A stretch of 64,000 bases of DNA from Clostridia bacterium (GTDB lineage Bacteria; Bacillota; Clostridia; Christensenellales; CAG-138). Location of the stretch: positions 1-64,000 of the forward strand of contig JAFWVQ010000035.1 of NCBI GenBank assembly GCA_017523925.1. The letters run 5' to 3'. The notes below the pieces were generated by a model that was given only the letters and a program-made list of their open reading frames with translations, searched no databases and was not told the origin of the DNA. Shown here piece by piece: positions 15,501-62,315 of the stretch (its first letter is position 1; every line of letters begins with the position of its first letter). Made by a program: the position numbers and the translations under genes.

Positions 15501-18500
15501 TGGGCGGACGAGAACAAGCCCAATGGCCTTACCTATACCGCAACCTCCGCAACCGTGGAGCTCAGGAAGAACGGCACCGCAGTTGAGAGCGTTGAGCTCA
15601 ACGCGGGCAATAACTGGACCAAGACCTGGACCAAGCTGCCCAAGTACTATGTAAACGACAACGGCGTTGCAGCCGAGGCCGATTACGAGATCGTTGAGAC
15701 CGCATTTGCGGTGGACGGCGAGACCGTTACCGAAGGCTTCTCCACCGAGTATGCTCTTAACGCCAGCACCAACAAAACCACCATCACCAACACCAAGGAG
15801 CAGGAATTCGTTGACGTAAGCTTCGTTAAGACTTGGATCGACAAGCTCGGCATTATCGGCCACGTCGATGATCCGAATGTCGAACATGAGAACGATGAAT
15901 TTGCCGAGGCTGATCACCTCTGGGACGACACCCTCAACGCTATTCCTTCCAGTATCACGCTTCAGCTCTACGTAAACGGCCAGCCCTACGGCGACCCCGT
16001 TATCAAGAACAAGGGCGCACACAACTGGGCGAACCACACCTTCCCCAACCTGCCCAAGTACGACAGCGAGGGCAACGTCATCGCTTGGGATATCGTTGAG
16101 ACCTTCGATAACCCCTCATGGGCCGAGGATATCTCCGGCCACAGCCGCAGCGTTGACGAGAACGGCAACGTGACCGTTAAGCGTTACAACAGGCAGAACT
16201 ACTCCCGTCTCGTTATCACCAAGACCTGGGATATTAACGGCGAACAAGTTGTGCCCGAGCAGGATTCCGTAACCTTCACCGTCTATCAGTATAGAGAAGA
16301 TGGCGACCATAAGAAAGTAAACACCTACACGCTCGAGAAGAGTGAGAACTGGACCCTCGTCATCAAGAGCTTCAATCCCAGGGAAGAGCTTCCCTTCCTC
16401 GATTCCGAGGGCAATATGCTCAGGTACTTCGCTCTCGAGGGCAGCTACGATGAGACCGTTTGGGCAAACAACGGCGATGAAGACGGCCGCATCTGGGTCG
16501 AGTTCGACCGCGACTACAAGATCGAAAACGGCAAGAAGGACGGCGCACTCGTTCTCCGCGCCGAGAACAGCAACCACCGCTCCTACTCCCTCGATAAGAC
16601 CGCAAAGCTGACCGCGGACGGCACCTACACCGCCACCCTGACCGCTCAGTACAACGGTTCCACCCCGAAGGACGATCCCGATACCTTCGTATCCGATACC
16701 CTCGGCTTCGACTTCCACGTTGATCCCGCAACCTACTCCGGAGATAATGTGAAGCCCTACATCGAGAGGTACAATGACGACGGCACCTACACCCGCCTGA
16801 CCCTCGACGACGACGACATCACCGACGAAGAGCGCGCTATGATCAACGCTCTCACCGTTGCCGTAGATACCTATGACCGCGGCGAAACCGTCTACACCGG
16901 CCCCCTTGCCGGCGTGAACGATACCTGGGGTCTCAAGGTGAACGTCACCGGCTTCGATCTTGAGAAGAACGGCTGCTATGTTGACGGCAGCGGCAAAGCC
17001 CACGGCTACAGGCTCGTGGTCGAAATCGAGAAGCTCCTCGCCAATGGCGACGCGGTCGGTAACGGCCTGCCCATCGGCGACAGGATCACCCCCTACGGCG
17101 AAGAGGAGCGCGGCGTCTGCGGTATCTACAAGACCAACGAAAACAACGCTCCCATGGTAGGCAAGCTCCGCACCAACGACACCGTGACCGAGCAGAAGCT
17201 CATATTCCCCAAGCCCACCGTCCAGATCCGCGAGATCCAGCAGGTTTATGACTTCGGTCTCCGCCAGAGGAACGACGATCTGCTCGACTTCTTCGGTCAC
17301 GGCACCGAGTACAGCTTGGGCATGGGCGATATCTCCCACGTTCTTGCGCTGGACTTCATGTACAGGGAGCAGAACGCATACCACTACACCTATCCCTATA
17401 ACGGTGCAGAAGGCAGGAATGCCGCTATGGACCGCATTACCTACACCAACGAATCCATCGCGAACGAAGAGTTCGAGGTTGGTCTCGTTACCTACTTCAA
17501 CGGCGAAGGCACTCCCAAAGATTCCCGTTGGACCCCCATCGACGAGGACGGGGACGGCAATGTCGACAAGTACGAGTGGACGAATCCCACCGGCCACCCC
17601 GAGGTCGACAAGCACGCCTGCTTCGGTTACTTCGAGCCCAAGGAGATCTCCGTTCGTGAGTTCACCCTCGCGGCGCTGATCGAGATCTCGGAAGGCAGCT
17701 ACGCATGGTGCAAGCTGATCTTCGTTCCCGCAACCAACGTCTACTACGAGGCTGAGGACTTCCTCAAGTTCGCAGATGGCAATGGCAGCACCGCTGAGCT
17801 TGGCCAGTGGTCCGCCGACGGCGACGCCAACTACAACGTGGAAGACCGCTATCAGCACCATTCCACCGGCGACCTGCAGCACGTCTACGGCTATGACGAT
17901 GCTTACGACAACGGTCACACCGGCACCCAGCTCGACGGCCACACCGCCTACGATGCCTATGGCTACTCCAACGGCAGTGCGATGCAGGTCACTCTGGATA
18001 AGGATTACTACGATAAGGTAGTTGCCAAGGAAAAGAGCTGGCCTACCGCCGAGTTCACCTTCACCGGCGAAGCCTTCGAGCTCTTCTCCAAGACCACAGC
18101 GACCAGCGGCTTCTTCGCGGTCCAGGTCTACGACATGAGCAACAACCTCGTTCAGACCAACCTTGTTGACACCCGCTACTTCGGTGCTCACGGCAGTGAC
18201 GGCGACCAGTTGGTCGATCAGAACGACGCAACCGGTAATCTCTACCAGATCCCCGTAATGCGCGTTGAAATGCCTGCGAAGGGCACCTATAAGGTTCGCA
18301 TCTCCGCTTGCTACCTGCCCTTCTTCGTACCCCTCCAGCCCACCAAGGGCGGCATCACCATCCCCGGTCTCGAAGGCGTATTCACCCTTGAGTATGCTGC
18401 CGAGAGCGATCCCGAGTTCATCCCCGCTGCCACCAAGGCCGAGTACAGCTACCCCGCGATGACGATGACTCTTGACGCTGTCCGTGTTTATCACCCCGCG

Positions 18501-19388
18501 ACCAACGAGCATCACGCAAGGTACCTCAAGACCGAGAAGCAGGGTCTGTATCAGCAGATCTCCGAGATCCTCACCGAGGATGATATCCCTGCAACCGGCA
18601 CCACCGGCGGTATCTTCATCGACTTCATGCACATCCAGGGCTCCGGCGATCCGGTTCTCGTTGAGAATGACCAGGGCGGCTACACCCTCGCTCAGTACCA
18701 GAAGTTCGGTCCGAACTACGAGATGTACCTGCGCAACGGCAACGCATTCTCCTTCGTTCTTGAGAACATCAACTTCAGGGAGAGCCTGCACATCGCAGCC
18801 AAGGTCCCGTATAAGACCGGCGACAGCGACGTTAAGCTCAAGGTAACCGTCTACGGTCTCTATGAGGATGCAGCAGGCGAAGTCGAGCGCGGCGCAATGC
18901 ACATCATGGATCCCATCGTGATCAAGTCCTCCACCGAGATGTACTACTCGCTGAACGATGCGCTTGTGTTCGACAACGGCCTCATCGCTCCGTACACCGA
19001 TCCCGAGACCGGAGAAACCTACCAGCCCTTGACTTACAAGAAGAATCTTGTTATAATTGAGTGCGAATCTGATGACGATGCCGCGATCCTCTCTCTGACC
19101 AACGTTAAGCTGGTCGACAAGAGCGGCGCCCGTCCCGCTCTCACCGAGGCTCAGCTCACCATGGACCCCGCTAGCTACCAGATCGCTATGGCGAGCGTCT
19201 GCGGCATCATGGGCGACGTTAACGGCGACCAGACCATCGACATGATCGATGCTATCGCCACCATGCGTCACGCTATCGGCGGCACGCAGCTCAACAACTA
19301 CGGTCTGTTCTGCGGCGACCTCGACGAGAATGCCTCTGTCGACATGCTCGATACGCTGAGCATCATGCGCGCGGCTCTCATCGACTGA
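12525..19388 (+). CDS. Giant secreted adhesin: predicted thioester domain, CnaB-like repeats, dockerin
   Basis: This 2287-residue protein starts with a Sec signal peptide (about 1-35, cleavage near AKA). Residues about 50-340 look like a thioester domain: Cys139 in VEYCEPEG and Gln299 in LVQCAIYAI are 160 residues apart, close to the spacing in known Cys-Gln thioester adhesins. Residues about 428-1340 hold seven or eight CnaB-like beta modules; many show the isopeptide triad context, Lys in NKVW/TKNW, Glu in YTVKE/YTVVE and Asn in TITNTK. The next 880 residues are acidic and unrecognised. The C-terminus (about 2228-2287) is a type I dockerin with two calcium loops, GDVNGDQTIDMID and GDLDENASVDMLD. 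There is no LPxTG motif, so attachment would be through a cohesin partner, not sortase. The codon use is strongly biased to C-ending codons, suggesting high expression. Confidence 0.8.
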   Translation: MNKNSLITKAIAGFLAVLMVFGTLVSLRGFSVAKAEIVNEEPAKSEPTKSGDGIGHRVITQQVSFSEWKLKDRPGNQGAEFYSDGASSNTYIGLWYDGVEASSAIPARSKTTRVWLAQNQYKNPGAFQGITGGKIVEYCEPEGESFFVTDESNFRGFIYQENYGPNKNWWLDTGTYFPAGSSPWNFIEKVIYVGTKSSDVNGPYQAIVKYFKDTIYPKMMAEYSWTRSSGSSNGCAIQVNVSSPYSNENIVEYIGVKQVITHKESYGHWYEAVWNDDKQNPSTRDMELFEDYLLPALVQCAIYAITCGDTNVSVGGVNLPTQREMSEQVEYTGNTVARREITRVKMYNGSTSASGYGSGSYVRMIVDKILSIAKGVETVPNANKISYSMPVHEVGRNNPAGSDIVGPNGEKYGYKGVFKVQAPAVTPIKVTFQGEFYEGVGTDGSLTGRTYAPHQISGAALENFLKVTLNNGDSTVGTTPLGESDNTPWRTEWQNQTRGGDYSIGVSDLNDEWVYLPGKTTTETDANGNVTITGRFLYNRTEVGIRKNWKNNITGSTTVPTDAEATFRLKQNGNDYGDVVTLNKDKTAHTWPKLPKYILGGDGITNLSGIQWESDKITPKTYAYTVVETGATNGWNKDTNPIADANGVLVFTNTKNNEFIDITVNKVWKDMNGNPVSAPSGVTVKADLYQNGAKMGRPTKDLNQSTNWTGTWVNLPKYDNNGNLYQYTVKESNVPNGWASTVTNSGLNYTITNTKTNEEFDITITKNWVGGTPDAGTNVQVDLYQNGVKMGRPTKDLNEGNRWTGTWIKLPKYDANGNLYQYSVKELNVPAGWTSIAPAPQSFTDSNLSLTLTNTKKKINVTFVQEWYTGVDENGNLTGKTTTPDNYIGGTNTYPSRPAWVQLYKDGQPVGEPIRAWRENDWSVTYGEPLDAGTYTAQYASPGTDHDSRYHPEQYGWLELPSYTEITVDNEGNVTITFKALADVVDRTVDKSWADENKPNGLTYTATSATVELRKNGTAVESVELNAGNNWTKTWTKLPKYYVNDNGVAAEADYEIVETAFAVDGETVTEGFSTEYALNASTNKTTITNTKEQEFVDVSFVKTWIDKLGIIGHVDDPNVEHENDEFAEADHLWDDTLNAIPSSITLQLYVNGQPYGDPVIKNKGAHNWANHTFPNLPKYDSEGNVIAWDIVETFDNPSWAEDISGHSRSVDENGNVTVKRYNRQNYSRLVITKTWDINGEQVVPEQDSVTFTVYQYREDGDHKKVNTYTLEKSENWTLVIKSFNPREELPFLDSEGNMLRYFALEGSYDETVWANNGDEDGRIWVEFDRDYKIENGKKDGALVLRAENSNHRSYSLDKTAKLTADGTYTATLTAQYNGSTPKDDPDTFVSDTLGFDFHVDPATYSGDNVKPYIERYNDDGTYTRLTLDDDDITDEERAMINALTVAVDTYDRGETVYTGPLAGVNDTWGLKVNVTGFDLEKNGCYVDGSGKAHGYRLVVEIEKLLANGDAVGNGLPIGDRITPYGEEERGVCGIYKTNENNAPMVGKLRTNDTVTEQKLIFPKPTVQIREIQQVYDFGLRQRNDDLLDFFGHGTEYSLGMGDISHVLALDFMYREQNAYHYTYPYNGAEGRNAAMDRITYTNESIANEEFEVGLVTYFNGEGTPKDSRWTPIDEDGDGNVDKYEWTNPTGHPEVDKHACFGYFEPKEISVREFTLAALIEISEGSYAWCKLIFVPATNVYYEAEDFLKFADGNGSTAELGQWSADGDANYNVEDRYQHHSTGDLQHVYGYDDAYDNGHTGTQLDGHTAYDAYGYSNGSAMQVTLDKDYYDKVVAKEKSWPTAEFTFTGEAFELFSKTTATSGFFAVQVYDMSNNLVQTNLVDTRYFGAHGSDGDQLVDQNDATGNLYQIPVMRVEMPAKGTYKVRISACYLPFFVPLQPTKGGITIPGLEGVFTLEYAAESDPEFIPAATKAEYSYPAMTMTLDAVRVYHPATNEHHARYLKTEKQGLYQQISEILTEDDIPATGTTGGIFIDFMHIQGSGDPVLVENDQGGYTLAQYQKFGPNYEMYLRNGNAFSFVLENINFRESLHIAAKVPYKTGDSDVKLKVTVYGLYEDAAGEVERGAMHIMDPIVIKSSTEMYYSLNDALVFDNGLIAPYTDPETGETYQPLTYKKNLVIIECESDDDAAILSLTNVKLVDKSGARPALTEAQLTMDPASYQIAMASVCGIMGDVNGDQTIDMIDAIATMRHAIGGTQLNNYGLFCGDLDENASVDMLDTLSIMRAALID

Positions 19389-42973: not shown

Positions 42974-43698
42974 TGATATTTGCACACAGAACCGATATAG
43001 GCAGAAGAAAAACCAACCAGGATTTCTTCCACGTGCCTGATGAAAAAGAAATGCAGCTTGCAATAGTAGCGGACGGCATGGGCGGCCACCGCGCAGGAGA
43101 GGTCGCAAGCCGCAAGGCGGTCGAGGCCATGCTCGAGTATTCGGAGGGTAAGCAGGCGCTTTCCCCTCGGGAGCTGCTTGAGCATGCCGTTTCGTATGCA
43201 AACCGCTCCGTATTCGAGCTTGCCTGCTCCGATGAAGAATACGCAGGCATGGGCACCACGATCGTGGCGGCGTATTTCGAAAACGAAAGCTTCACCTTTG
43301 CAAACGTGGGCGACAGCAGGCTGTATCATTTTAGCGGCGAAAGGCTCACGCAGCTTTCGAGCGATCATTCGCTCGTGGAGGAGCTCGTTCAGTCCGGCGT
43401 GATAACCAGGCGTCAGGCGGAGGGGCATCCGCAGCGAAACATCCTCACAAGGGCGGTCGGATGCACGCATTTCGTAAGCGCGGATATCGGCACCGTGCGC
43501 TGGAAGCGCGGGGATATCGTGATGCTTTGCTCGGACGGGCTGCACGGCAGCGTTTCCGAGGAGGAGATGGAGCGCATCATAGCCTCAAATGAAAACCTGC
43601 TTGATTCCTGCGACGAGCTGACCGAGACCGCGCTTGAAAACGGCTCGAGCGACAATATCACCGTAGTGCTTGTGAAGAATACGGGAGGTGCGGCATGA
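42973..43698 (+). CDS. stp: PP2C-type protein serine/threonine phosphatase
   Basis: This 241-residue cytosolic phosphatase reverses phosphorylation by the adjacent PASTA kinase. Metal-binding motifs are RKTNQDFF (about 12-19), VADGMGGHRAGE (about 33-44), GTTIVAAYF (about 94-102), FANVGDSRLY (about 110-119) and CSDGLHG (about 179-185), with the last Asp in SSDNITVV (about 226-233). It overlaps the kinase gene by 4 bp. The pair is widely known as PrpC/Stp with PrkC/StkP. Confidence 0.95.
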   Translation: MIFAHRTDIGRRKTNQDFFHVPDEKEMQLAIVADGMGGHRAGEVASRKAVEAMLEYSEGKQALSPRELLEHAVSYANRSVFELACSDEEYAGMGTTIVAAYFENESFTFANVGDSRLYHFSGERLTQLSSDHSLVEELVQSGVITRRQAEGHPQRNILTRAVGCTHFVSADIGTVRWKRGDIVMLCSDGLHGSVSEEEMERIIASNENLLDSCDELTETALENGSSDNITVVLVKNTGGAA

Positions 43699-45578
43699 TA
43701 GGCAGAGTGCTTTCCGAAAGATACAGGATAGAGAGCGAGATAGCAAACGGCGGAATGGCCGAGGTCTATCGCGCCTACGATGAAGCGGAGCAGCGCGAGG
43801 TCGCGATCAAGCTCATCAAAAAGGAGTATTGCGAGGACAAGGAATACATCAGGCGCTTTGAGCGCGAGATCAGCGCAGTTCTGTCGCTCGATCATCCGAA
43901 CATCGTGCGCGCCTATGATTTCGGCGTGTGCGACGGCAGAAACTACCTCGTGATGGAGCTTGTGGACGGCTACACGCTCAAGGAATACCTCGAGCGCCGC
44001 GGCAAGCTTCGCCCGAAGGAGGCGGCGTACATCGCCTGCAAGGTGCTCGATGCGCTCGAATGCGCCCATGAAAACGGCTACGTCCACAGGGACGTGAAGC
44101 CGCAGAACGTGCTCATCTCCAATGACAACGAGATCAAGCTGACCGACTTCGGCATTGCAAAATCCAAGCAGAGGGTAACGAACACCTTCGACGGCAGCAA
44201 GATAATCGGTTCGGTGGAGTACATCTCCCCCGAGCAGGTGAACGGCGAGCCGGCCACCGTGAAGAGCGATCTGTACTCGGTCGGCATCATGCTCTATGAG
44301 ATGCTGACGGGCGAACCGCCCTTCGACGGCGAGCTTGCCGTGAATATCGCGATGCAGCATATGAAGCAGCCGATACGCCCGCCCCATGAGCTGGATCCGA
44401 GGATCTCCCGTTCGCTCAGCGATGTGGTGCTGAAGGCCACCGCCAAGGACCGCAGCGCGCGCTATGAGTCCGCAACCGATATGAAAAGGGATATCCTGCG
44501 CACCTTCAGGCAGCCCAAGGGCAGATTTGCGCACGTTAAAAAGACGGAGCGAATGCATTACGACGGCGAGCTCGAGGACGACGGAAAATCCCGCACCAAG
44601 CTCAAGATCGGCCTCATCCTCGGCGCGGCGGGGCTCGCGCTGGCGCTGATCGCGATCATGTTCTTCTCGTGGCTTCGGATCTGGAACGGCAACGACGACA
44701 AGAAGCTTTCCAAGGTTCCGGATGTGCTCGGAAGAAGCGCACAGAGCGCCAAAAAACTGCTTGAAAACAGGGAGTTCAAGATCAAAATATCCGGCACCAT
44801 GACCGATTCCGAATACGACGCCGGCACCGTATGTAAGCAGGTGCCGTCGGCGGGAACGGCGTTTGACACCGGCTCGGAGGTCGAGGTCTGGATCTCAAGC
44901 GGCACCGAAACGGTCAGCATGCCGAACCTCGTCGGAAGGAGCTTCGATGAGGATCTGGCGCTGCTGCTCGAGGCCTACGGCATAGGCATCGAATCCATAA
45001 GCTTCGATGCAAGCGTTTCGCCCGAAGGCAACGTGCTGTGGCAATCCATACCGGAGGGCACGGAGCTCGTCAAGGGCGACGAGAGCATAGCCCTTGAGAT
45101 AAGCGGCTCAAGGGAGACCACCCTTCTGCCGATGCCCGATCTGAGCAAATACAAGACCGCGCGCAGGATAGCGGACGTGCTGCGGATCTACGGCTTTGAG
45201 GATTTCGTATTCAGCATCGAAAAGACCAAGGGCGGAGGCGTGGGCGAGCTGCTCGTTTCTTCGCAGCTTCCTTCGGCCGGCAAGCTCGTTCTGCCGGGCA
45301 ATATCCGCGTTGATGTGATCCTTTCGCCCGATTGCGCAAAGGCGGCTGCGGACGTGGAGTTCTCCATCCCCGCAAGCCAGACGGGCGGCGAACTGAGGGT
45401 CAGCCTCTTCTCGGAAAACGGCGAATTCCTGCTCTATGAGCAGCGGCTCGAAAAGTCGGATGAGGCGGCCACCATCGCCTTCCGCGCACGCTATATCGAG
45501 GAGGGGAAGCACACGCTCGTGGTCAGCTCAAACGAAACCGAGCTCATGCGGCTCTCGGCGGAATTCACCAAGCCGTGA
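43695..45578 (+). CDS. prkC: PASTA-domain Ser/Thr protein kinase (PrkC/StkP type)
   Basis: This 627-residue bitopic receptor kinase monitors peptidoglycan or lipid II. The kinase domain (about 9-270) has GGMAEVY, the ATP Lys in VAIKLIKK (about 40), HRDVKPQN (about 133-140) and DFGIAK (about 152-157). One membrane helix lies at about 304-326. Three PASTA domains follow (about 338-405, 407-475, 478-540), then an about 85-residue beta-rich C-terminal domain. Known targets in relatives include division and wall-growth factors and translation GTPases such as RsgA, the next gene. It is co-transcribed with its phosphatase. Confidence 0.95.
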   Translation: MIGRVLSERYRIESEIANGGMAEVYRAYDEAEQREVAIKLIKKEYCEDKEYIRRFEREISAVLSLDHPNIVRAYDFGVCDGRNYLVMELVDGYTLKEYLERRGKLRPKEAAYIACKVLDALECAHENGYVHRDVKPQNVLISNDNEIKLTDFGIAKSKQRVTNTFDGSKIIGSVEYISPEQVNGEPATVKSDLYSVGIMLYEMLTGEPPFDGELAVNIAMQHMKQPIRPPHELDPRISRSLSDVVLKATAKDRSARYESATDMKRDILRTFRQPKGRFAHVKKTERMHYDGELEDDGKSRTKLKIGLILGAAGLALALIAIMFFSWLRIWNGNDDKKLSKVPDVLGRSAQSAKKLLENREFKIKISGTMTDSEYDAGTVCKQVPSAGTAFDTGSEVEVWISSGTETVSMPNLVGRSFDEDLALLLEAYGIGIESISFDASVSPEGNVLWQSIPEGTELVKGDESIALEISGSRETTLLPMPDLSKYKTARRIADVLRIYGFEDFVFSIEKTKGGGVGELLVSSQLPSAGKLVLPGNIRVDVILSPDCAKAAADVEFSIPASQTGGELRVSLFSENGEFLLYEQRLEKSDEAATIAFRARYIEEGKHTLVVSSNETELMRLSAEFTKP

Positions 45579-52372: not shown

Positions 52373-53548
52373 ATGAAGAAGATAGGGAAGCCGATATCAA
52401 TAATACTTATCCTGCTCATGCTCGGTGCATGCGCGCCTGTTGATGTTCCCAAAACGCCCGATCCGAGCGAAGCGGCGCATACAGCTGCGCCTACGGAGAC
52501 GGTGACCGCCGCGCCCACGGTTACGCCGGAGCCAACGACCGCACCAACGGAAACCCCGATTCCCACCCCAACGCCGAATCCGTTCCTGCCACCACAGCTC
52601 GGCAACCTTATCGGCGGGCCGATCCTGCCGGAGCCGTATAAATACTTCGTGCTGAAGGGCGAGGGCGATCTGTTCTATGTTTACGATACCATGGGCGAGC
52701 TTATTAAGATCATAGCTGATGGAGGATACTATTATGATCGCTCCCCCGTTGGAATTTACAGCGAATACGGGATGATCGGCGGCTTTTCATTCAAACTGAT
52801 GGATTCGATCGAAAACTATGACCGCGTTGCCGATTTCGTGCTGCATATAGAAGACGGCGAGCTTATTGAGATAATGGATGCATACTATGAAAACCCGATA
52901 CCGATAAAGCAAAACGGTCTCGGCATGGGAAAGCACGGCGGCGTGCTTCGCATAGACGGAAAATACCTGCTTCTTGAAGCGGAGTATAACGAGGAAACGG
53001 GCAAAATGGATTACGGCCGCTGCGTATGGCTGGATGATTCGGGAACGGTAATCGGCGAATTCGATCCCGCGCCTTTCGGCGTGATCCGAGGCGTTCTTGC
53101 GGAAAAGTATCTTATCTGCGAGGACAGCATAAGGGAAAACTCGGAGTTTAGCTGCAAGGTGGTCACTCTTGACGGCGAAGTGCTGATTTCGGATATTGAG
53201 CCGGTAACGGACGGTTGGTTCAGGCATGACTATGAAGAAGCTTTGCGGGGCATAGGCTGGTATTGCATATCGTTCGACTGCGTAAAGGTCGGCGAAAAAG
53301 CATGGTGCAGGCTCGATCGGTATGGCCGATTCGTGCCTTGCGAAGAGTATCCGAATCATTCCTATTATCCCGATATCACCACCGATCCGGTAAAAGTCTC
53401 GGGCTATAAGCTCATTACGGATCACGGCTACGGTGCGCCCGGCGTCTACGCCGGAATAAAGCGCGGGGGCAACTGGCTCTTCAAAATTTACGATCCGAGC
53501 CTCGTGAGCGATTCTCATCGAACCGAAAAACATGCTCCCGATTGGTGA
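52373..53548 (+). CDS. Array lipoprotein 1 (novel paralogous family)
   Basis: This 391-residue lipoprotein has a signal peptide with lipobox LGAC (Cys20), a Pro/Thr-rich stalk (about 35-70) and a globular domain. Three blocks shared with the other array members are: N-block QLGNLIGG...YFVLKGEGDLFYVYDTMGEL (about 75-110); middle block IGEFDPAPFGVIRGV (about 223-237); and C-block GVYAGIKRGGNWLFKIYDP (about 361-379) followed by SDS and a terminal DW. Short D-x-x-G strands recur, reminiscent of WG/KWG or beta-propeller repeats, but this is an inference. No catalytic motif is seen. It heads the array, with its own promoter. Confidence 0.75.
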   Translation: MKKIGKPISIILILLMLGACAPVDVPKTPDPSEAAHTAAPTETVTAAPTVTPEPTTAPTETPIPTPTPNPFLPPQLGNLIGGPILPEPYKYFVLKGEGDLFYVYDTMGELIKIIADGGYYYDRSPVGIYSEYGMIGGFSFKLMDSIENYDRVADFVLHIEDGELIEIMDAYYENPIPIKQNGLGMGKHGGVLRIDGKYLLLEAEYNEETGKMDYGRCVWLDDSGTVIGEFDPAPFGVIRGVLAEKYLICEDSIRENSEFSCKVVTLDGEVLISDIEPVTDGWFRHDYEEALRGIGWYCISFDCVKVGEKAWCRLDRYGRFVPCEEYPNHSYYPDITTDPVKVSGYKLITDHGYGAPGVYAGIKRGGNWLFKIYDPSLVSDSHRTEKHAPDW

Positions 53549-53552
53549 TAAA

Positions 53553-54743
53553 ATGATAAAAAATACGATTAAAAACTGCATACGAATCATCGGCATCCTG
53601 CTTGCCTTTCTGCTTATCCTACCGCTTCTTTGCTGCGCGAGGGACACGGGAAAGACTCCAAACGAAACCTACGCGCCCGCGACCGATCCTATAACGGGCG
53701 AGCGCGTTCGCGTAACGCCCAAGCCGCGATCAACGGCGCCGCCGGATTTTTCATCGGAAGGGCTCAGCTTTCCTACCACGGGCGCAGGGCTCGGCAATCT
53801 GACGGGCGGCCGCATCTTCCCCGAGCCGGCAGAATATCTGGTGCTCGGCGGCAGCGGCGGAGTTCACTACGTTTACTCAAGCATGGGCGAGCTGCGCGGA
53901 GTTTTCCAAAGCCACTTTGATTTCACGGGCTTCTATGGCGAATATGGAGTCTGCGGCAATTTCAGCCTTAAGCTGATGGATTATTTCCGGACGTACATTT
54001 GGCGCAGCGCGGATGTGTTTGTTGGCGTGGAACGCGAAGATGAAAATAGGACAGCGGTCAGCATAACCGACTGGCGCTGCGAAAAAACGGTAATGATCGA
54101 GGGCGGCGGCATCGACCTCGGCCGGTGCGGAACGCTGTTTCATGTCGAAAACAAGTATCTCGCGGTGTTCAAGGACTATTCAAACAGGGCGGATATCGAA
54201 TACGCCGAGCCGGATATAGTAAAGCTGACGCTCATCGATCAGGACGGCTCGATCATCGGCGAGATAGATAACGCGCCATTTAACTCGATCGCGGGCGTGC
54301 TCGGCGGCAAATATCTCGTTTGTTACGACGAAAACAACGTCGTTTTCGATGAGGATGATTGGGTGCTCTACGATCTTTACGATATTTCGGGAAATCTTAT
54401 CGAGGAAAAAGTCGTTGTGCGCTGGTATAACGATCTTTCCTCTACAATGTTTGGCGATTATTACTATAAAAACGGCAGATGGTACGACTGCGAAGGCAAT
54501 GAATGCGATGCTTACCCGAGGGAGGACGCCATGAGCGATATCCATTTGGCAACCGAGCGCATCGAGCTTGAGGGCGTAAGCATTCGTATCGGCGGCTGGA
54601 GGGCAGGGGGATTCGGCGTTCAAACGGAAAGAGGCATATACGCGGGCGTTGTGGATGAGGAGGGCAGCTGGCTTTTCAAGATCTACAGCCCGGTGCTCGA
54701 TTCGGACTCTAAGCCGAAGCGCAAATCGTTTTTATTTGATTGA
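53553..54743 (+). CDS. Array lipoprotein 2
   Basis: This 396-residue paralogue has a signal peptide ending LPLLCC, so the exact lipidated Cys is uncertain and the lipobox is weak. The stalk is short (about 25-75) and less repetitive than in the others. Shared blocks are LGNLTGGRIFPEP...HYVYSSMGEL, IGEIDNAPFNSIAGVLGGKYLV and GIYAGVVDEEGSWLFKIYSP, then SDS. It is the most divergent member: Asn replaces Gly after the PF of the middle block, and it has an extra acidic loop about residue 265. An in-frame ATG at 53532 overlaps gene 1; 53553 gives a better signal peptide. Confidence 0.72.
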   Translation: MIKNTIKNCIRIIGILLAFLLILPLLCCARDTGKTPNETYAPATDPITGERVRVTPKPRSTAPPDFSSEGLSFPTTGAGLGNLTGGRIFPEPAEYLVLGGSGGVHYVYSSMGELRGVFQSHFDFTGFYGEYGVCGNFSLKLMDYFRTYIWRSADVFVGVEREDENRTAVSITDWRCEKTVMIEGGGIDLGRCGTLFHVENKYLAVFKDYSNRADIEYAEPDIVKLTLIDQDGSIIGEIDNAPFNSIAGVLGGKYLVCYDENNVVFDEDDWVLYDLYDISGNLIEEKVVVRWYNDLSSTMFGDYYYKNGRWYDCEGNECDAYPREDAMSDIHLATERIELEGVSIRIGGWRAGGFGVQTERGIYAGVVDEEGSWLFKIYSPVLDSDSKPKRKSFLFD

Positions 54744-54758
54744 TGCAGGGAGGGTAAT

Positions 54759-55913
54759 ATGAAACGCCTATCCATTACAGCGATAATACTTTCGGCAATA
54801 CTGCTTTCGCTTCTTTCCTGTGCAAAAAACGGGGGAGCGGGGACTGAAACGAATACCGCCGAGCCCGCCGAAACTGTGGCGCCTGCGCTGCCCGTCCTTC
54901 CCGCAAGAGGCAGGCTCGGAAACCTCATTGGAGGTGAGATATTCCCCGACCCCGCAAAGTATCTCGTTTTGAAGGGCGAGGGCGATCTTTACTATATCTA
55001 CGACCGCATGGGCGAGTTTGTGACGGTCTGCAAGGGCATGGGCTATCTTTCGGGCTTCTACGGCGAGGACGGCATTGTCGGCAATTTCTCGCTCAGGCTC
55101 ATGCAGAATATGGACGATTGGCAAACCTTCGGGCAGCTCATGCTGCATATCGTGGATGGCGAGCTGATCGAGTTTATCGACTGCTATACCGATAAAACCG
55201 TTCAGGTGAAGTCAAAAGGGCTGAGCATCGGCGAACAGGGCGGCGTTCTGCCATTTGATGATAAATACCTCGTTATTGAGGCGTATCACGATGAAAATGC
55301 CGATAAGGGGCGGGAGCTTCGCTATGAGCGCTGCACTTGGCTCGATCAAAACGGCGATATTGCGGGAGAATTCGACCCCGCGCCGTTCGGGCGTATTCGC
55401 GGCGTTTACGGCGGAAAGCATATCATAGCGATCGACGGGGGCGACGCCTCCGAGGATGAGGATCATTTCAAAACGAAGATATATTCGCTCTCCGGCGAAG
55501 CTTTGCTTGAGAATATCGAATCGGCTGATGCGGCGGTGTTTTATACGCTGAAGGAAGGCGAAGTGATCGACGGTTCCGTTTTTGAACGCAGGCTTACATT
55601 GGCGGAATATGCCTATACCGAGTTCGATCGCTGGTACGACAGCGCGCCGGAACCAATGCGAACTCCGCCTGCGGATGCTTATGATGTGGAATACAACAGG
55701 ATGCGCCGCTCAATCGAGCTTGAGGATCGCATCGTTATCGGCGACAACAGCGTGAATTGGTACAGCCTGCTGTTTTGGGAGAGCACACCCGAGCCCATCC
55801 GCATCTACGTTGGCGTTAAGGACGGGGCGGGGAACTGGCTTTTCAAGATATTCAATCCCGCGCTCGCAAACGATTCAAAGCGCAGACCAAGATCCGTTTT
55901 TGGGATCGGCTAA
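54759..55913 (+). CDS. Array lipoprotein 3
   Basis: This 384-residue paralogue has lipobox LLSC (about 21) and a short Thr/Glu/Ala/Pro stalk. Blocks are LGNLIGGEIFPDP...YYIYDRMGEF, AGEFDPAPFGRIRGVYGGK and RIYVGVKDGAGNWLFKIFNP, then NDS. Between blocks it shares an IVDGELIEFID segment with member 1 (IEDGELIEIMD), so 1 and 3 are the closest pair by eye. It starts 15 bp after member 2 with GGGAGGG upstream, consistent with an operon. Confidence 0.75.
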   Translation: MKRLSITAIILSAILLSLLSCAKNGGAGTETNTAEPAETVAPALPVLPARGRLGNLIGGEIFPDPAKYLVLKGEGDLYYIYDRMGEFVTVCKGMGYLSGFYGEDGIVGNFSLRLMQNMDDWQTFGQLMLHIVDGELIEFIDCYTDKTVQVKSKGLSIGEQGGVLPFDDKYLVIEAYHDENADKGRELRYERCTWLDQNGDIAGEFDPAPFGRIRGVYGGKHIIAIDGGDASEDEDHFKTKIYSLSGEALLENIESADAAVFYTLKEGEVIDGSVFERRLTLAEYAYTEFDRWYDSAPEPMRTPPADAYDVEYNRMRRSIELEDRIVIGDNSVNWYSLLFWESTPEPIRIYVGVKDGAGNWLFKIFNPALANDSKRRPRSVFGIG

Positions 55914-55954
55914 GGAGTGAATTATAAACAAATTATGAACTTTAATAGAACCAC

Positions 55955-55983
55955 TTGAATATATGCCCCTTATCCAATATAAT
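55955..55983 (+). promoter_or_regulatory. Promoter of the PstS-like lipoprotein gene
   Basis: TTGAAT (55955-55960), a 17-bp spacer and TATAAT (55978-55983), in an AT-rich gap after member 3. Confidence 0.75.
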
Positions 55984-56033
55984 ACGCATGGCGAACGGCA
56001 AAGCGAAATGCCGTTCGCGGAAAGGAATGAAAA

Positions 56034-57092
56034 ATGAAACGCATTCTTGCTTTTGTACTTGCACTCACCCTTGCCTTCGCGCTCGTTTCCTGCGCGAACC
56101 GGGATAAGCCCGATCCCACGCCCGATCCTTCGGAAGTGACGAGCGAAGCGCCCACCGGCAACCCTACCGATGCACCGACCGATGCACCCACCGACGAGCC
56201 GACCGAGGCACCCACCGATGAGCCTAGCGGCGAACCCACCGATGAGCCGACCGAGGCGCCGAATCCCCCCGTGATGCGCCCCTCCTGCTCCTACGATGAG
56301 TACCCCCGCTTCGACGGCTCCACCGCGAATATCCCCCTTGCAATGAGCCTTATCCAGTTCGTTACCGGCTGCACCGAGGCTCAGGCAGAGGCAAAGTGCT
56401 CCGTCAGCACCACCGACTATTCCTATGAGGCGCTCGATAAGGGCGAGGCGGATATGCTGCTCGTTTACGAAGCAAGCAAGCCCACCAAGGAGCAGTACGA
56501 TCCCGAAAACCGCTTCGATATGCGCCCGATCGGCCTCGATGCGCTCGTTTTCATCGTTAATAAGGATAACCCCGTGAACAGCCTCACCGAGGAGCAGGTC
56601 AAGGGCATCTACACCGGCGAGATCACGAACTGGAAGGAAGTCGGCGGTCTCGATCAGGAGATCAAGGCGTTCCAGCGTCCCGTTCTCAGCGGCAGCCAGA
56701 CCCTAATGCTCGACCTTGTTATGAAGGGCACCGAGATGGCTTCCCCCGAGGAGGTCACCGTTTCTGTCACCATGAGCGACGTTATCAGCGATATCGCCGC
56801 CTACGACAGCAGCGCGAATGCGATCGGCTACTCCGTGTTCTACTACGCAAGCTATATGTACAACCAGCCGAACCTCAAGTTCATCACGATAAACGGCGTT
56901 GAGCCCACCTATGAAACCATCAATGCGGGCGAGTATCCCTACATCAACCCGTTCTACGCGATTATACCAAAGACCAACCCGAACGAGATCGCGAAGACCA
57001 TCGTGGACTGGCTCGAGACCCCCGAGGGTCAGACCCTCGTTGCCACCTGCGGCTACGTTCCCTACATGAAGGGCATAACCGCCAATCAGTAA
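56034..57092 (+). CDS. PstS-like phosphate-binding lipoprotein
   Basis: This 352-residue lipoprotein has lipobox LVSC (Cys20), a repetitive stalk of PTDAPTDEPTEAP type (about 35-80) and a periplasmic-binding-protein-like domain of the PstS family. Visible family segments are RFDGSTANIPLA (ligand loop), DLVFIVNKDNPVNSLT-like LVFIVNKDNPVNSL, IYTGEITNWKEVGG and RPVLSGSQTLM with TSxAIGYSVFYY-like NAIGYSVFYY. Members bind phosphate or related oxyanions for ABC uptake, but no pstCAB genes are nearby. Its codon use is more biased than that of the flanking paralogues, suggesting higher expression. It has its own promoter and a hairpin after the stop. Ligand uncertain. Confidence 0.82.
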   Translation: MKRILAFVLALTLAFALVSCANRDKPDPTPDPSEVTSEAPTGNPTDAPTDAPTDEPTEAPTDEPSGEPTDEPTEAPNPPVMRPSCSYDEYPRFDGSTANIPLAMSLIQFVTGCTEAQAEAKCSVSTTDYSYEALDKGEADMLLVYEASKPTKEQYDPENRFDMRPIGLDALVFIVNKDNPVNSLTEEQVKGIYTGEITNWKEVGGLDQEIKAFQRPVLSGSQTLMLDLVMKGTEMASPEEVTVSVTMSDVISDIAAYDSSANAIGYSVFYYASYMYNQPNLKFITINGVEPTYETINAGEYPYINPFYAIIPKTNPNEIAKTIVDWLETPEGQTLVATCGYVPYMKGITANQ

Positions 57093-57113
57093 TTATAATA
57101 AAGCATAATTGAA

Positions 57114-57139
57114 TTGAGCGCCGAGACTTCGGCGCTCAA
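57114..57139. terminator. Hairpin after the PstS-like gene
   Basis: TTGAGCGCCGA (57114-57124) pairs with TCGGCGCTCAA (57129-57139) across a 4-nt loop. The T tract after it is poor, so it may be an incomplete terminator allowing read-through to member 4. Confidence 0.6.
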
Positions 57140-57177
57140 AACCTATTTGGAGAAACAAATCTTACGGAGGGAACCCC

Positions 57178-58506
57178 ATGAAACCGAAAAGCGCCGCCGC
57201 GCTTCTGCTTAGTTTAGCGATGCTCCTTTTCTGCGCCTGCGCTCCAACCGATAAACAGCAAGATACGCCCGAACCCACGGCGGAAGCCACCGCCGCGCCG
57301 ACGGATAAGCCGACGGCAGTTCCGACCGACGCGCCGACGGATGCGCCGACGGCAGTTCCCACCGAAGAACCCACTCCGAAGCCGACAGGCAGACCCACCG
57401 CGCCTCCGGATGCGGGCGAGATGCCGAGTTTTCCCGGTGCGGTGCAGCTTGGAAACCTTATCGGCGGCGAGCTGTTTCCCGAGCCGGGGATGTATTTTGT
57501 GCTGAACGGGGAAAGCGATCTCAAGTATGTTTACGACCGCTTCGGCGAGCTTGTTTCAAGCTTCAACATTACCGATTACGAGGATCACTGGCTGGATAGC
57601 GGGGGATTCTTCGGCGAGCACGGTGCGCCCTGGGGCTACAGCATCGAGCGCGGGGAAAACCTGCCGGATTACCGCTTGTTCGGCGATCTTGCGCTTATTG
57701 CAAGATCCGACGGATACTGCGTTTTGGAAAACGGCGAGGAGTGGCGAGGCTTCGTTATATCGGACATTAGGACGGGGCTGCTTGAGGAGCATCCTTTGAT
57801 GAACGGAGCGGAGGATATCGAGCTGGAAAGCTTTAATTACGACACGGGCAGCTATGAGTTTGTAAAGGCGAGAGGCTTCCGCATCGGTGAAGCGGGAGGG
57901 ATACTTCATATAGACGGAAAGTATCTGGTGATCGAGAGATACTATGAATTCGTAAGCGATTCCGATTGGTATATGCACCGCCCCGGACCTGCCAAAGCCG
58001 TGCTGTTCGATGAAAACGGCGCGAGGCTCGGCGAGGTGGACACCGCTCCCTTCGGCACGGTGCGCGGAGTTTTCGGCGGCAAATACATAATCGGCGAAAG
58101 GATGCTTCCGGAGGAGGAATGGTACTTTGACGGGTCGAATTACGTTCAAACCGCGAAAAGCCTCTACACCCTCTCGGGCGAGCTCGTGATGGACAATGTA
58201 GAACCCATCGTGTCGGACGGCTTTGCGGCGGACGAGGAGATCGGCGCGGGCTGGATGATCTGCGCATCCTACCTCAAGGATAGGGAAGGCGGCGTATTTA
58301 ACAGCGCGTTTGAGAGCATAGAGGAGCTGCCCGCGGATGCGAAAAAGGGCGAGTATTCGAGCCTGTACCGTCCGTTGGAGTTGGAAAACAGAGTTTTTGT
58401 GGAAAGCGGCGTTTATGTAGGCATAAAGGACGATGAGGGAAACTGGCTTTTCCGCATCTACAACCCCAATTTTGCGAGCGATTCGCAAAGGGAAGACCGA
58501 TGGTAA
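57178..58506 (+). CDS. Array lipoprotein 4
   Basis: This 442-residue paralogue has lipobox FCAC (about 21) and a long PT-repeat stalk (about 30-78, units like PTDAPTDAPTAVPT). Blocks are LGNLIGGELFPEP...KYVYDRFGEL, LGEVDTAPFGTVRGVFGGKYII and GVYVGIKDDEGNWLFRIYNP, then SDS and a terminal W. It shares with member 6 a GE(H)G(A/M)P(W/Y)GYSIERGE segment after the first block. It is preceded by GGAGGG. Function unknown. Confidence 0.75.
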   Translation: MKPKSAAALLLSLAMLLFCACAPTDKQQDTPEPTAEATAAPTDKPTAVPTDAPTDAPTAVPTEEPTPKPTGRPTAPPDAGEMPSFPGAVQLGNLIGGELFPEPGMYFVLNGESDLKYVYDRFGELVSSFNITDYEDHWLDSGGFFGEHGAPWGYSIERGENLPDYRLFGDLALIARSDGYCVLENGEEWRGFVISDIRTGLLEEHPLMNGAEDIELESFNYDTGSYEFVKARGFRIGEAGGILHIDGKYLVIERYYEFVSDSDWYMHRPGPAKAVLFDENGARLGEVDTAPFGTVRGVFGGKYIIGERMLPEEEWYFDGSNYVQTAKSLYTLSGELVMDNVEPIVSDGFAADEEIGAGWMICASYLKDREGGVFNSAFESIEELPADAKKGEYSSLYRPLELENRVFVESGVYVGIKDDEGNWLFRIYNPNFASDSQREDRW

Positions 58507-58549
58507 TCAAAGGAAACTGTAATTCTTTTATCTAAGGGAGATCATGAAA

Positions 58550-59794
58550 ATGAAAAAGACCCCAATAATCGCTTCATGCGCCGCGCTGCTGCTTTTTGCT
58601 TCGGCCTGCGTTCCAAGCGTAAAACCGCAAGATACGCCCGCTCCCACGGCGGAAGTTACCACCGCACCCACGGCAGCGCCGAGCGAAGACCCGAGCGGAG
58701 GGCCCACGGCAGAACCGACCGCGCCCCCGGCCCCGGCTGTCGTTTTCCCGACCCCGGGCAGGCTGGGCAACCTTGTAAACGGCGGCTCCGTGCTGCCCGA
58801 GGGCATGGCGTATTTCGTGCTGGACGGCGAGAGTGATATCCACTATGTTTACGATCGCTTCGGCGAGCTGATGGCGACCTTTACCGCCCCTTCCGATGAT
58901 TTTAACTGCTGGTCAGATTCTGCGGGGATATACGGCGAATACGGCGTTCCCTACGGCTACTGCATAAAGCGCGGAGAGATGATGCCGGCAGATATCATCG
59001 ATTTTGCAAACAGGCTCTTTGAATACAGAAAAATATGGGATGATGAGGAAGGTTATTCCGAATATTCGGAGTATTACGGCTTCGTTTGGACTGCATTGTG
59101 GGATAAAAAGCTTGAAAGGCGCATCGAATTTGACAGGCCCTTAGGGTTTGGGTTCGGCGCCGGCATACTTCCCGTGGACGATAAGCTGATTCTGATAACC
59201 GTCAGGGATGTCGAGGAAAACGGGGAGCAGGCAGCAATCACCGAAGCGATAATGCTCGATGAAAACGGCGAAGTTATCGGCGATTTCGATCCCGAGCCCT
59301 TCGGCGGCATAGATATGATCGAGGGCGTGTTCGCAGACCGTTACCTTCTTATAAAAGCCGATGACGAATCCCACCCGCTGGAGCTTGACGGCGATTGGCC
59401 GTGGTATAGAAAATACGATCTCTATTCGCTTTCCGGCGAATGCGTTATGCGCGATTGCTGGCTGGATCCGCAGGATAGATTCGGCTATTGGGACGGCTGC
59501 GGCAGAGGGCTTATCTATGCAAATTGCTTCATCAACAGGCAGGGGGAGGTGTACGGAAGCGATCTCAGCGTGCGCTACACCGTGCCGGATGGCACCGACC
59601 TGCATAGCTTCGATATAACCACGAGCGAAAACGACTCTATCTTCGGCATATACTATCGCTGCGGCTATACAGTCGATCAGGAGGGCATTTATGCGGGCGT
59701 GAAGGATGAAGCGGGAAACTGGGTCTTCAAGGTCTATAACCCGAAGCTTGCAAGCGATTCGCCGCCCGAAACCGAACCGGATGACGAGTGGTGA
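58550..59794 (+). CDS. Array lipoprotein 5
   Basis: This 414-residue paralogue has lipobox ASAC (about 20) and a PT/PS stalk (about 28-65). Blocks are LGNLVNGGSVLPE...HYVYDRFGEL, IGDFDPEPFGGIDMIEGVFADRY (with a 2- to 3-residue insertion in the middle block) and GIYAGVKDEAGNWVFKVYNP, then SDS and terminal DEW. It is rich in Trp and Cys in its last third. ATG 58550 is preferred over 58544 because AGGGAG then has proper spacing. It lies about 40 bp after member 4. Confidence 0.75.
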   Translation: MKKTPIIASCAALLLFASACVPSVKPQDTPAPTAEVTTAPTAAPSEDPSGGPTAEPTAPPAPAVVFPTPGRLGNLVNGGSVLPEGMAYFVLDGESDIHYVYDRFGELMATFTAPSDDFNCWSDSAGIYGEYGVPYGYCIKRGEMMPADIIDFANRLFEYRKIWDDEEGYSEYSEYYGFVWTALWDKKLERRIEFDRPLGFGFGAGILPVDDKLILITVRDVEENGEQAAITEAIMLDENGEVIGDFDPEPFGGIDMIEGVFADRYLLIKADDESHPLELDGDWPWYRKYDLYSLSGECVMRDCWLDPQDRFGYWDGCGRGLIYANCFINRQGEVYGSDLSVRYTVPDGTDLHSFDITTSENDSIFGIYYRCGYTVDQEGIYAGVKDEAGNWVFKVYNPKLASDSPPETEPDDEW

Positions 59795-59824
59795 GCGAAA
59801 GCTTATTACGATTAGGAAAGGGAA

Positions 59825-61174
59825 ATGAACGATATGAAAAAAAGCTTGATCCTTGCTTTTGTGATTGCGCTTTTTGCACAAGCCGCCTGCGCTCCGGCCG
59901 AAAAGCCGCAGACCACCCCCGAGCCCACGGCGCAAGTCACCGCCGCGCCTACCGAAGCGCATACCGAAGGACCGAGCGAGGCACCGACAGATGCGCCGAC
60001 GGCAGTCCCGACCGAAGCGCCGACGGCAGAGCCGACCGCGCCTCCGACTCCGGCGCTTGTTTTCCCGACTCCGGGAAGGATGGGCAAGCTCATCGACGGC
60101 CCGCTGTTCGACGAGCCGGCTGCATATTTCGTTCTCGAAGGCGAGAGCGATCTTAAGTACGTTTTCGACCGATTCGGCGAGCTTGTAACGGTGATCAATG
60201 CAACGGATTACGAAGAACCCAATTGGAGTCAGCATCCTGCTTTCTACACAGAGCACGGCATGCCCTACGGCTACAGCATCGAGCGCGGCGAGTGGATGCC
60301 GCCGTACCGTTTCTTTGACAATATGGCGATAACAATATCGCAAAGTTCGTATTTGAATGAGAACGGTGAACGGGACTTCTCTTTCTTCATAACGGATATA
60401 AAGGACGATCGGCTTGAAAAGACCATTCTGATGGATAACGCTCCCGAATTCGATTTTGTCGATGGCGAAGGAAACACGCGCACTCAAAGGGCTTTCAAGA
60501 TCGGCTGGGCGGGCGGCATACTGCACGTGGACGGCGTTTACCTTGTTTACGGAGCGACAATGGAAAATTACGGCGAGGAGGGCCAGGCTCTGGCTTATCG
60601 CGAATGCCTTATGCTCGATGAAGAGGGAAACCGTATAGGCGAGATTGATCTTTCCGCCTTTAATAGAGTGCGCGGTGTTTTCGGCGGCAAATACATAATC
60701 GGTGAGCGTTATCTTGACGAAAGCGAGCGGTATGAGGATTCCAACGGATATACGGTCTATAGTGAAACAAATCTTTATACGCTCTCGGGAGAGCTTGTGA
60801 TGAGCAGGGTTCGACCGTATTCTACGGGCGGCTTCGTTGTGGACGAGGAACTCTATTTCGGCTCGATCTACACGGCACGCTTTCTTAATGATGAGAACGG
60901 TAATTTTTACGATAAGGATCTGAACCCGATACCCGCGCCAGATGAGGACGAACTGCACACTGATCCGGAGGAATTCACGAGGAACTATTTCGCACTGCGG
61001 GTCAAGGACAGGCAGATCGTCTCCGGAGGCGGTATATATGCCGGCATAAAGGACGGCGAGGGCAACTGGCTTTTCAAAATATATGATCCGGCGGGTGCAA
61101 GCGACAGCCAAAATGAGGAGCACTGGCCGGACTGGTATTGGGATTACTATTTCAGAGAGAACTACGGCGATTGA
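59825..61174 (+). CDS. Array lipoprotein 6
   Basis: This 449-residue paralogue has lipobox QAAC (about 23), a PT stalk (about 32-75), and blocks MGKLIDGPLFDEP...KYVFDRFGEL, IGEIDLSAFNRVRGVFGGKYII and GIYAGIKDGEGNWLFKIYDP, then SDS. The C-terminus is extended by a Trp/Tyr-rich tail (HWPDWYWDYYFREN). Similarity to member 4 is highest (GYSIERGEWMP; MRPLYTLSGEL-like NLYTLSGELVMS). The start may instead be ATG 59834. It closes the array and is followed by a strong terminator. Confidence 0.75.
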   Translation: MNDMKKSLILAFVIALFAQAACAPAEKPQTTPEPTAQVTAAPTEAHTEGPSEAPTDAPTAVPTEAPTAEPTAPPTPALVFPTPGRMGKLIDGPLFDEPAAYFVLEGESDLKYVFDRFGELVTVINATDYEEPNWSQHPAFYTEHGMPYGYSIERGEWMPPYRFFDNMAITISQSSYLNENGERDFSFFITDIKDDRLEKTILMDNAPEFDFVDGEGNTRTQRAFKIGWAGGILHVDGVYLVYGATMENYGEEGQALAYRECLMLDEEGNRIGEIDLSAFNRVRGVFGGKYIIGERYLDESERYEDSNGYTVYSETNLYTLSGELVMSRVRPYSTGGFVVDEELYFGSIYTARFLNDENGNFYDKDLNPIPAPDEDELHTDPEEFTRNYFALRVKDRQIVSGGGIYAGIKDGEGNWLFKIYDPAGASDSQNEEHWPDWYWDYYFRENYGD

Positions 61175-61208: not shown

Positions 61209-61241
61209 GCAAGCGCCGCAGCAGCGGCGCTTGCGGCATTT
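61209..61241 (+). terminator. Terminator of the lipoprotein array
   Basis: GCAAGCGCCGC (61209-61219) pairs with GCGGCGCTTGC (61224-61234) around a 4-nt loop, followed by GGCATTTTAA. It sits between convergent genes and ends 15 bp before the stop codon of the minus-strand gene. Confidence 0.85.
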
Positions 61242-61249
61242 TAACGGAG

Positions 61250-61567
61250 TCAGTTGCCCAGCATATTCATTATCCCGATCAGCTTTTGCCGCTGCTCACT
61301 TGTCAGCATCGGCATTATGCTATCCGCGGTCTTCTGCATCGCAGAAGCATCGAACGAGCCGTCCTTCTTCTGCCGCTCGGTCATGCGCCTTAGCTCATCC
61401 ATAAGCTCCGTCTCGCTCTTGCCGCCGTAGGCGTTCATCATGCTTTCGATATTCGCCATATCCGCGCCGCTGAGCTGCGCCGAGCCCGCCTGCGCTTCGT
61501 TTCGAATTTGATCCTCGCCCTTTTCGCTCCGCTCGTTCTTTCTGTATGCTTTAAGGTTCCTTGCCAT
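61250..61567 (-). CDS. Small helical hypothetical protein
   Basis: This 105-residue soluble protein has a basic N-terminus and a helical remainder: ANIESMMNAYGGKSETELMDELRRM (about 38-62) and DSIMPMLTSEQRQKLIGIMNML (about 83-104). Similar MMNxYxGKSExEL...MLTxEQRxKL proteins are, from memory, common in Clostridia without assigned function. The ribosome-binding site GGAGG is good. It is divergent from the Met-rich protein gene 103 bp away, and the pair may share function. Confidence 0.7.
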   Translation of the reverse strand: MARNLKAYRKNERSEKGEDQIRNEAQAGSAQLSGADMANIESMMNAYGGKSETELMDELRRMTERQKKDGSFDASAMQKTADSIMPMLTSEQRQKLIGIMNMLGN

Positions 61568-61670
61568 ATCGCGCCTCCGAATTCCTTATTCACAATACTA
61601 TATGCACGATATCGCCCCTCGGTGAATAATATGTTCATGGGAAACAAAACTCGGAAAGGCGGTGCGGACT

Positions 61671-62315
61671 ATGCCGAATCCTTCTCAAAATGCGGGAAAC
61701 AGGGGAAATCCGCGGCGAACGGTGCAGAGCGGAGGCAGCCTCAATAACAGCGCGCGTCCTATGCAGACCGTGCCGGAGGAGGCAAAAAAGGAGGAACGCT
61801 CGCCCCTGCTTCTGCTTGCGCGGCGCATACGCGAGGAGCAGGGTGCGGACGGGCTCAAGGCGTTTCTTATTGCGATGGAGCCCTTCGCCGCGCCGTTCGA
61901 ACTGAAAAACCTTGCCGTGCAGTTCGGGATGGAGCATCATGTCCGCGCTGGCGCGGCGCAGGGGCAGGTGAATGCTTACGATCGGAACGCCGCGTTTTCA
62001 TCGCCCGAAGGCGGCTTTTCGGCACAGAATAACGGCGGCTTCAATATGAACGGCATGAACGGCACGGCTGGCACGGGCGGCATGGGCGGCGCGCAGCAGA
62101 ACAGGGGCATGGGCTTCGACCCGAACCTTTTCCGAATGATGCAGATGATGAACGGCGCGGGCAGCGGCGGCATGGGTAATTTCGGCGGGAATAACGGCGG
62201 CAATATGAATCAAATGATGCAGCTTATGCAGCTTATGAGACTCCTTCCTATGCTCCAAAACATGGGCAAGGGCGGCGCGGATATCTCGCAGATCATGAAA
62301 ATGATGAATATGTGA
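61671..62315 (+). CDS. Met/Asn/Gly-rich hypothetical protein
   Basis: This 214-residue protein has a helical N-terminal part (about 40-85: RSPLLLLARRIREEQ...) and a low-complexity C-terminal half built of GGFNMNGMNG and GGMGGAQQNRGMG-like runs, ending in Met-rich helices MMQLMQLMRLLPMLQNM and IMKMMNM. No signal peptide is present. It may self-associate or bind metal through Met, but this is speculation. ATG 61671 has AAAGGCGG upstream and is preferred to the GTG at 61662. Confidence 0.68.
   Translation: MPNPSQNAGNRGNPRRTVQSGGSLNNSARPMQTVPEEAKKEERSPLLLLARRIREEQGADGLKAFLIAMEPFAAPFELKNLAVQFGMEHHVRAGAAQGQVNAYDRNAAFSSPEGGFSAQNNGGFNMNGMNGTAGTGGMGGAQQNRGMGFDPNLFRMMQMMNGAGSGGMGNFGGNNGGNMNQMMQLMQLMRLLPMLQNMGKGGADISQIMKMMNM

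Follow-up and report, generated by a model that had tools for sequence, protein, structure and literature searches.

AztD has a propeller fold, as the titles of its structures state. It is the partner of the binding protein (SBP) AztC, to which it hands zinc, and both come from one operon, together with AztAB, the ABC transporter belonging to AztC (PMC6689063). Mycobacteria offer a characterised partnership between an orphan SBP and a propeller protein: FecB forms a complex with MMAR_1667/Rv3035 and AftB, one that includes a glycosyltransferase, and the propeller partner is a predicted lipoprotein in M. marinum (PMC12802301). A propeller lipoprotein can also be the accessory of a sensor kinase, as LpqB is with MtrAB (PMC13068155).

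The array described here lies in the window, by which we mean the whole 64-kb stretch of DNA that was analysed, taken from a rumen-type gut Clostridia genome. It resembles the FecB–Rv3035/MMAR_1667–AftB system in that an orphan SBP without a transporter and a (here predicted) propeller protein occur together in the envelope, and the AztC–AztD system in that an SBP has such a partner. In contrast to FecB, the partners are encoded by adjacent genes or fused, and a single SBP is accompanied by up to seven propellers. In contrast to the zinc-binding AztD and its transporter-served partner, we recognised no gene for a transporter beside the array, and the domain alignment (A3) contains no invariant or nearly invariant His or Cys column. 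What distinguishes this system from both pairs is the combination of a conserved pocket motif, no recognised transporter, fusion and an amplified propeller arm. Searches of the open part of PubMed Central found no account of the domain family or of an SBP–propeller fusion. To us the array resembles a single binding protein whose partners have been duplicated more than it does six surface proteins that act on their own, and we lean towards an extracytoplasmic SBP–propeller receptor or scaffold with a duplicated propeller arm, for which we infer a physical complex, a ligand and the receptor or scaffold role itself.

The array and its domain family

Reading of the window's open reading frames (ORFs) places six lipoprotein genes, all on the + strand, at 52373-61174: paralogue 1 (52373..53548, 391 aa, domain from 52598, 97% identical to its orthologue at locus L043), paralogue 2 (53532..54743, 403 aa, domain from 53790), which overlaps gene 1 by 17 nt, paralogue 3 (54759..55913, 384 aa, domain from 54915), paralogue 4 (57178..58506, 442 aa, domain from 57448), paralogue 5 (58544..59794, 416 aa, domain from 58763) and paralogue 6 (59825..61174, 449 aa, domain from 60080). 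All six products carry a hydrophobic leader with a lipobox Cys at its end, followed by a Thr/Pro-rich stretch, a long stalk in genes 1, 4, 5 and 6 but a shorter linker in genes 2 and 3, and then by a domain of 316–364 aa with 31–48% identity to that of gene 4. The tandem array of six paralogous lipoproteins reported in the preliminary description is therefore real, as is its single interruption, at 56034-57092, by what proves to be a PstS-like lipoprotein gene. The three conserved blocks reported there are also present with minor departures, such that gene 6 begins MGKLIDG and block 2 reads EFDPAPFG, EVDTAPFG, EIDLSAFN and so on. Searched with a stalk-free profile of the six sequences, the 2.59-Mb genome yielded these six (E 1e-113 to 1e-136) and no others, the best further match having E 0.07, so the resemblance greatly exceeds what chance would give and does not stem from the stalks. 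Many other lipoproteins of the genome were rejected as relatives, since a full-length query matched them through the stalk and leader only and these matches vanished with the stalk-free profile.

The domain itself belongs to no described family that sequence profile searches of Pfam, NCBIfam, PHROG and the PDB could find, in keeping with the preliminary description. The six proteins scanned against Pfam, NCBIfam and PHROG gave no credible domain family, only a PT stalk repeat and a leader match; 29 domain members scanned singly against Pfam, followed by ten distant and near domains, likewise gave none, and a profile search of PDB sequences with the domain returned nothing at E ≤ 5. Weak Pfam matches such as NdhO and Lipocalin_4 lacked credibility. 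We also considered an origin in a phage or mobile element and rejected it, no relative having been found in the phage records and viral contigs searched.

WG-like or propeller repeats had been suggested from the short D-x-x-G strands, and here the two halves of the suggestion part company. The WG-repeat family found no support, with no Pfam WG_beta_rep match in the six full proteins at E ≤ 10, nor in the 29 or the ten domains at E ≤ 1, whereas two AlphaFold models, both built from 29-sequence alignments, are all-beta and propeller-like (paralogue 3, pLDDT 81.5 and pTM 0.80; paralogue 4, pLDDT 86.9 and pTM 0.84). Foldseek and VIA-align lists for the models consisted mostly of propellers, including prolyl oligopeptidase, eIF3b, NHL, olfactomedin, BamB and AztD (6ck1, Z 4.8 over 229 residues), but the matches were weak, with Z reaching 6.5 and 6.0 at best, TM-scores from Foldseek low and superpositions poor, and, among those listed, many kinds of propeller reached similarly low Z without any standing out. 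The domain shares short D-x-x-G strand pairs and a propeller-like predicted fold with WG-repeat, WD40, NHL, BamB and olfactomedin propellers, but differs from them in having no Pfam match and only weak, unspecific fold similarity. Comparison of the domain profile with itself revealed a weak repeat with a period of about 52–55 residues. We consider the family previously unnamed and probably propeller-shaped; we read the models as an irregular propeller, and about six blades would be our guess.

An SBP paired with the domain

The interrupting gene (56034..57092, + strand), whose significance the preliminary description missed, is the constant partner of the domain family. It encodes an orphan PstS-like SBP lipoprotein of 352 aa that resembles PstS of PstSCAB in matching PF12849 (PBP_like_2, E 1.9e-28) and the PDB PstS chains 4q8r and 4gd5 (E 6e-23 and 7e-23), but falls below the curated NCBIfam cut-off for PstS (TIGR02136, 113.4 vs 206.6 bits). 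The R...SGT motif of PstS grips phosphate. Its counterpart here, R215...S219-G220-S221, aligns with that motif and is invariant in 21/21 near sequences, in contrast to the less conserved pocket of FecB (PMC12802301). At the place of SSR in classical PstS of the same family, the SBP reads VYE. The retained PstS-type R...SGS motif makes some anionic ligand likely on sequence grounds, whereas the VYE leaves phosphate itself uncertain.

Pairing of the domain with this SBP is observed as co-occurrence, adjacency and fusion, alongside expansion in copy number. A single GTDB family, sampled in 103 genomes, had the near SBP clade (copies at least 51% identical, best E per genome 2e-84 or lower) together with the domain in 19 of them and neither in the other 84 (Fisher 4e-21, uncorrected for phylogeny); the co-occurrence falls inside that family and is in part a matter of common ancestry. 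In the loci checked (the window, L042–L049 and L073–L083), an SBP gene of the same clade adjoins a domain gene. The SBP gene comes first, with −4 to 107 nt between its stop and the start of the domain gene in 15 distinct loci besides the window, contigs that appeared twice (L046/L073, L047/L074, L049/L075 and L045/L081) being counted once; in the window, paralogue 4 lies directly 3′ of it. In genome G044 (L071), the domain gene precedes the SBP gene and the two ORFs overlap. SBP and domain are fused in one chain in three ORFs of G027 (752, 779 and 904 aa) and in one of G046, whose 710 aa break off where the contig ends. Two of the G027 fusions stand in tandem (L072:2588-4924 and L072:4928-7639) and adjoin an rpoB-like ORF, so the fused form has been duplicated too. 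Fusion and co-occurrence make a joint action of propellers and SBP the likeliest arrangement. An otherwise unnamed lipoprotein family thereby gains, through fusion and strict co-occurrence, a concrete partner, and with it a testable SBP–propeller system.

Some features of the window weigh against this reading, as the SBP gene has a promoter-like site of its own and a hairpin lies between the SBP gene and gene 4, so that the seven genes may not form one transcription unit. By eye, a candidate sigma-70-like promoter (TTGAAT-17-TATAAT, 55955..55983, + strand) precedes the SBP gene, and similar promoter-like sequences occur in L042, L043 and L044. A small predicted hairpin, GGCGAACGGCA...TGCCGTTCGC (55990..56018, + strand), also placed by eye, lies in what is presumably the 5′ leader of the SBP transcript, and its arms appear complementary in L042 as well (GCAAACGG...CCGTTTGC).

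More distant SBPs (31–43% identity) occur in other contexts, judged by eye: with membrane segments, with a YARHG-like tail, or as true PstS, the last adjoining PstCAB-like genes at L141 and L142. In G027, orphan PstS-like SBP domains at L138:2162-3757 and L139:1875-3170 are followed, again by eye, by a YARHG-like C-terminal segment, that is, the same SBP type is joined to another extracellular domain.

The most probable alternative is uptake, in which the SBP would serve an ABC importer of small molecules whose genes lie elsewhere, with the propellers as surface capture or hand-over proteins. The conserved pocket motif is consistent with this, as is AztD, which partners an SBP (PMC6689063) and is among the weak fold matches. 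Yet no transporter genes were recognised beside the SBP or array in the loci examined by reading ORF translations, the basis on which functions of neighbouring genes in related loci were judged, a situation shared with FecB, and the domain lacks the invariant His or Cys residues that a metal carrier such as AztD might lead one to look for. For a Pst transporter in particular, the window genome has no PstC over the cut-off (best 26 bits vs 196, with controls over the cut-off in 12/14 genomes) and only one PBP_like_2 protein, which makes it unlikely that the SBP feeds one; two Na/Pi cotransporter genes are present. Nor was PstC found at E ≤ 1e-20 in any genome of genera g1 (the window's) or g25 carrying the SBP–domain pair, these genomes being drafts, some only 53–70% complete, so that absence in any one is not proof. 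PstC does occur in G003 (genus g1, pair absent) and in the pair-bearing genomes of g15 and g18. A replacement of the Pst transporter by the array was considered and rejected as a simple exchange, since neither is present in G001 and G004, and the two occur side by side in the genomes G044, G027 and G046. Taken together, we regard uptake as unlikely.

Less probable still is a sensory role, with propellers and SBP as extracytoplasmic accessories of a sensor kinase, comparable to LpqB–MtrAB or ChvE–VirA. Such roles are documented for propeller lipoproteins as well as for SBPs (PMC13068155), but in the loci examined we recognised no sensor kinase gene beside that of the SBP, with the exception of L044, where a kinase/regulator-like ORF pair lies downstream of the array on ORF reading.

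Copy number, history and selection

The domain family is present in eight of the 11 genomes of genus g1 and missing from three. Copy numbers in the genus are six in the window genome, seven in G008 (one with an in-frame stop), six in G005, about six in G007 (gene 1 being split over two contigs), two in G002 and one each in G006, G009 and G010, the last apparently frame-broken. Genus g25 has one copy in seven genomes and two in G034, and distant forms of the domain occur in g15 (G044) and g18 (G027 and G046). A profile that included the distant fused forms, run over 396 genomes from the order, matched only inside the same GTDB family; the related loci come from uncultured Clostridia genomes, several of them labelled rumen or abomasum. 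In the sister genus, SBP and propeller mostly form a 1:1 pair, whereas in the window's genus the propeller has been amplified to as many as seven copies and the SBP is still single.

In a tree of 38 domains, the orthologues of G000, G007 and G008 group tightly, the branches between paralogues are deep, and the gene 5 type has been duplicated separately in G005. Deep paralogue branches, tight orthologue groups and variable copy number together support birth and death of array genes by tandem duplication, and the repeated duplication proposed in the preliminary description is borne out by copy numbers of 0 to 7 among relatives. In G008, an in-frame TAA divides the gene 2 orthologue (L043:1382-2626), which points to loss of genes from the array.

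Divergence of this kind invites the explanation that the array consists of free-standing surface proteins diversified by selection, for phage or immune evasion or for partner discrimination, and tandem duplication, the range of copy number and strong paralogue divergence would all fit it. Orthologues tell otherwise. Those in close species are 78–99% identical (57% in the most distant gene 3 pair), and between species dN/dS over the domain is 0.13–0.41, with 0–0.20 in the conserved blocks and 0.22–0.48 in the stretches between them; the blocks were set by pattern, which caught fewer columns in genes 1, 2 and 5 (60–62 vs 82), where one block is probably missing from the set. As averages rather than site-wise values, these ratios indicate purifying selection both within and between blocks, so ongoing diversifying selection, the part of the earlier proposal that concerned present positive selection, is unsupported. 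SBP orthologues have dN/dS of 0.06–0.13, which on averages places the domain under weaker constraint than the SBP. Near-identical orthologues in close species and the constant link to one SBP also argue against free-standing proteins, and we consider that explanation improbable.

Under the receptor or scaffold reading that we favour, the six genes would encode lipid-anchored, mostly stalk-tethered irregular beta-propellers that form the accessory arm of the orphan PstS-like SBP. The ancestral state would have been one SBP and one propeller, as adjacent genes or a single fused protein, followed in the window's genus by tandem duplication and divergence of the propeller gene while the SBP remained single. 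At the outer face of the membrane, the SBP would bind a small anion, or a polymer that bears the ligand, and dock to the propellers to form a receptor or scaffold, comparable to FecB–Rv3035 and AztC–AztD, with different propeller copies possibly making different partner or substrate contacts. Carried to its extreme, one invariant SBP with up to seven alternative propeller co-receptors would constitute a combinatorial receptor in gut Clostridia, an extension that we consider doubtful. Such a case in gut Clostridia, amplified and independent of the mycobacterial one, would point to recurring re-use of binding proteins at the cell surface.

Other features of the window

A predicted terminator-like hairpin, AAGCGCCGC-AGCA-GCGGCGCTT followed by GCGGCATTTT (61211..61242, + strand, by eye), marks the end of the array. 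Past it lie two divergent small ORFs, 61250-61567 (−) and 61662-62315 (+), both without a Pfam match. Upstream of the array, the window encodes a Ser/Thr protein kinase with PASTA domains (43695-45578) and, further away, a T-box leader (RF00230, 104 bits) at 2630-2877, directly 5′ of a class I aminoacyl-tRNA synthetase ORF with DUF5915 (3003-6143), probably isoleucyl. The 2287-aa product of an ORF at 12525-19388, a giant surface or cellulosome-type protein, carries a type I dockerin at its C-terminus along with four Cna_B stretches.
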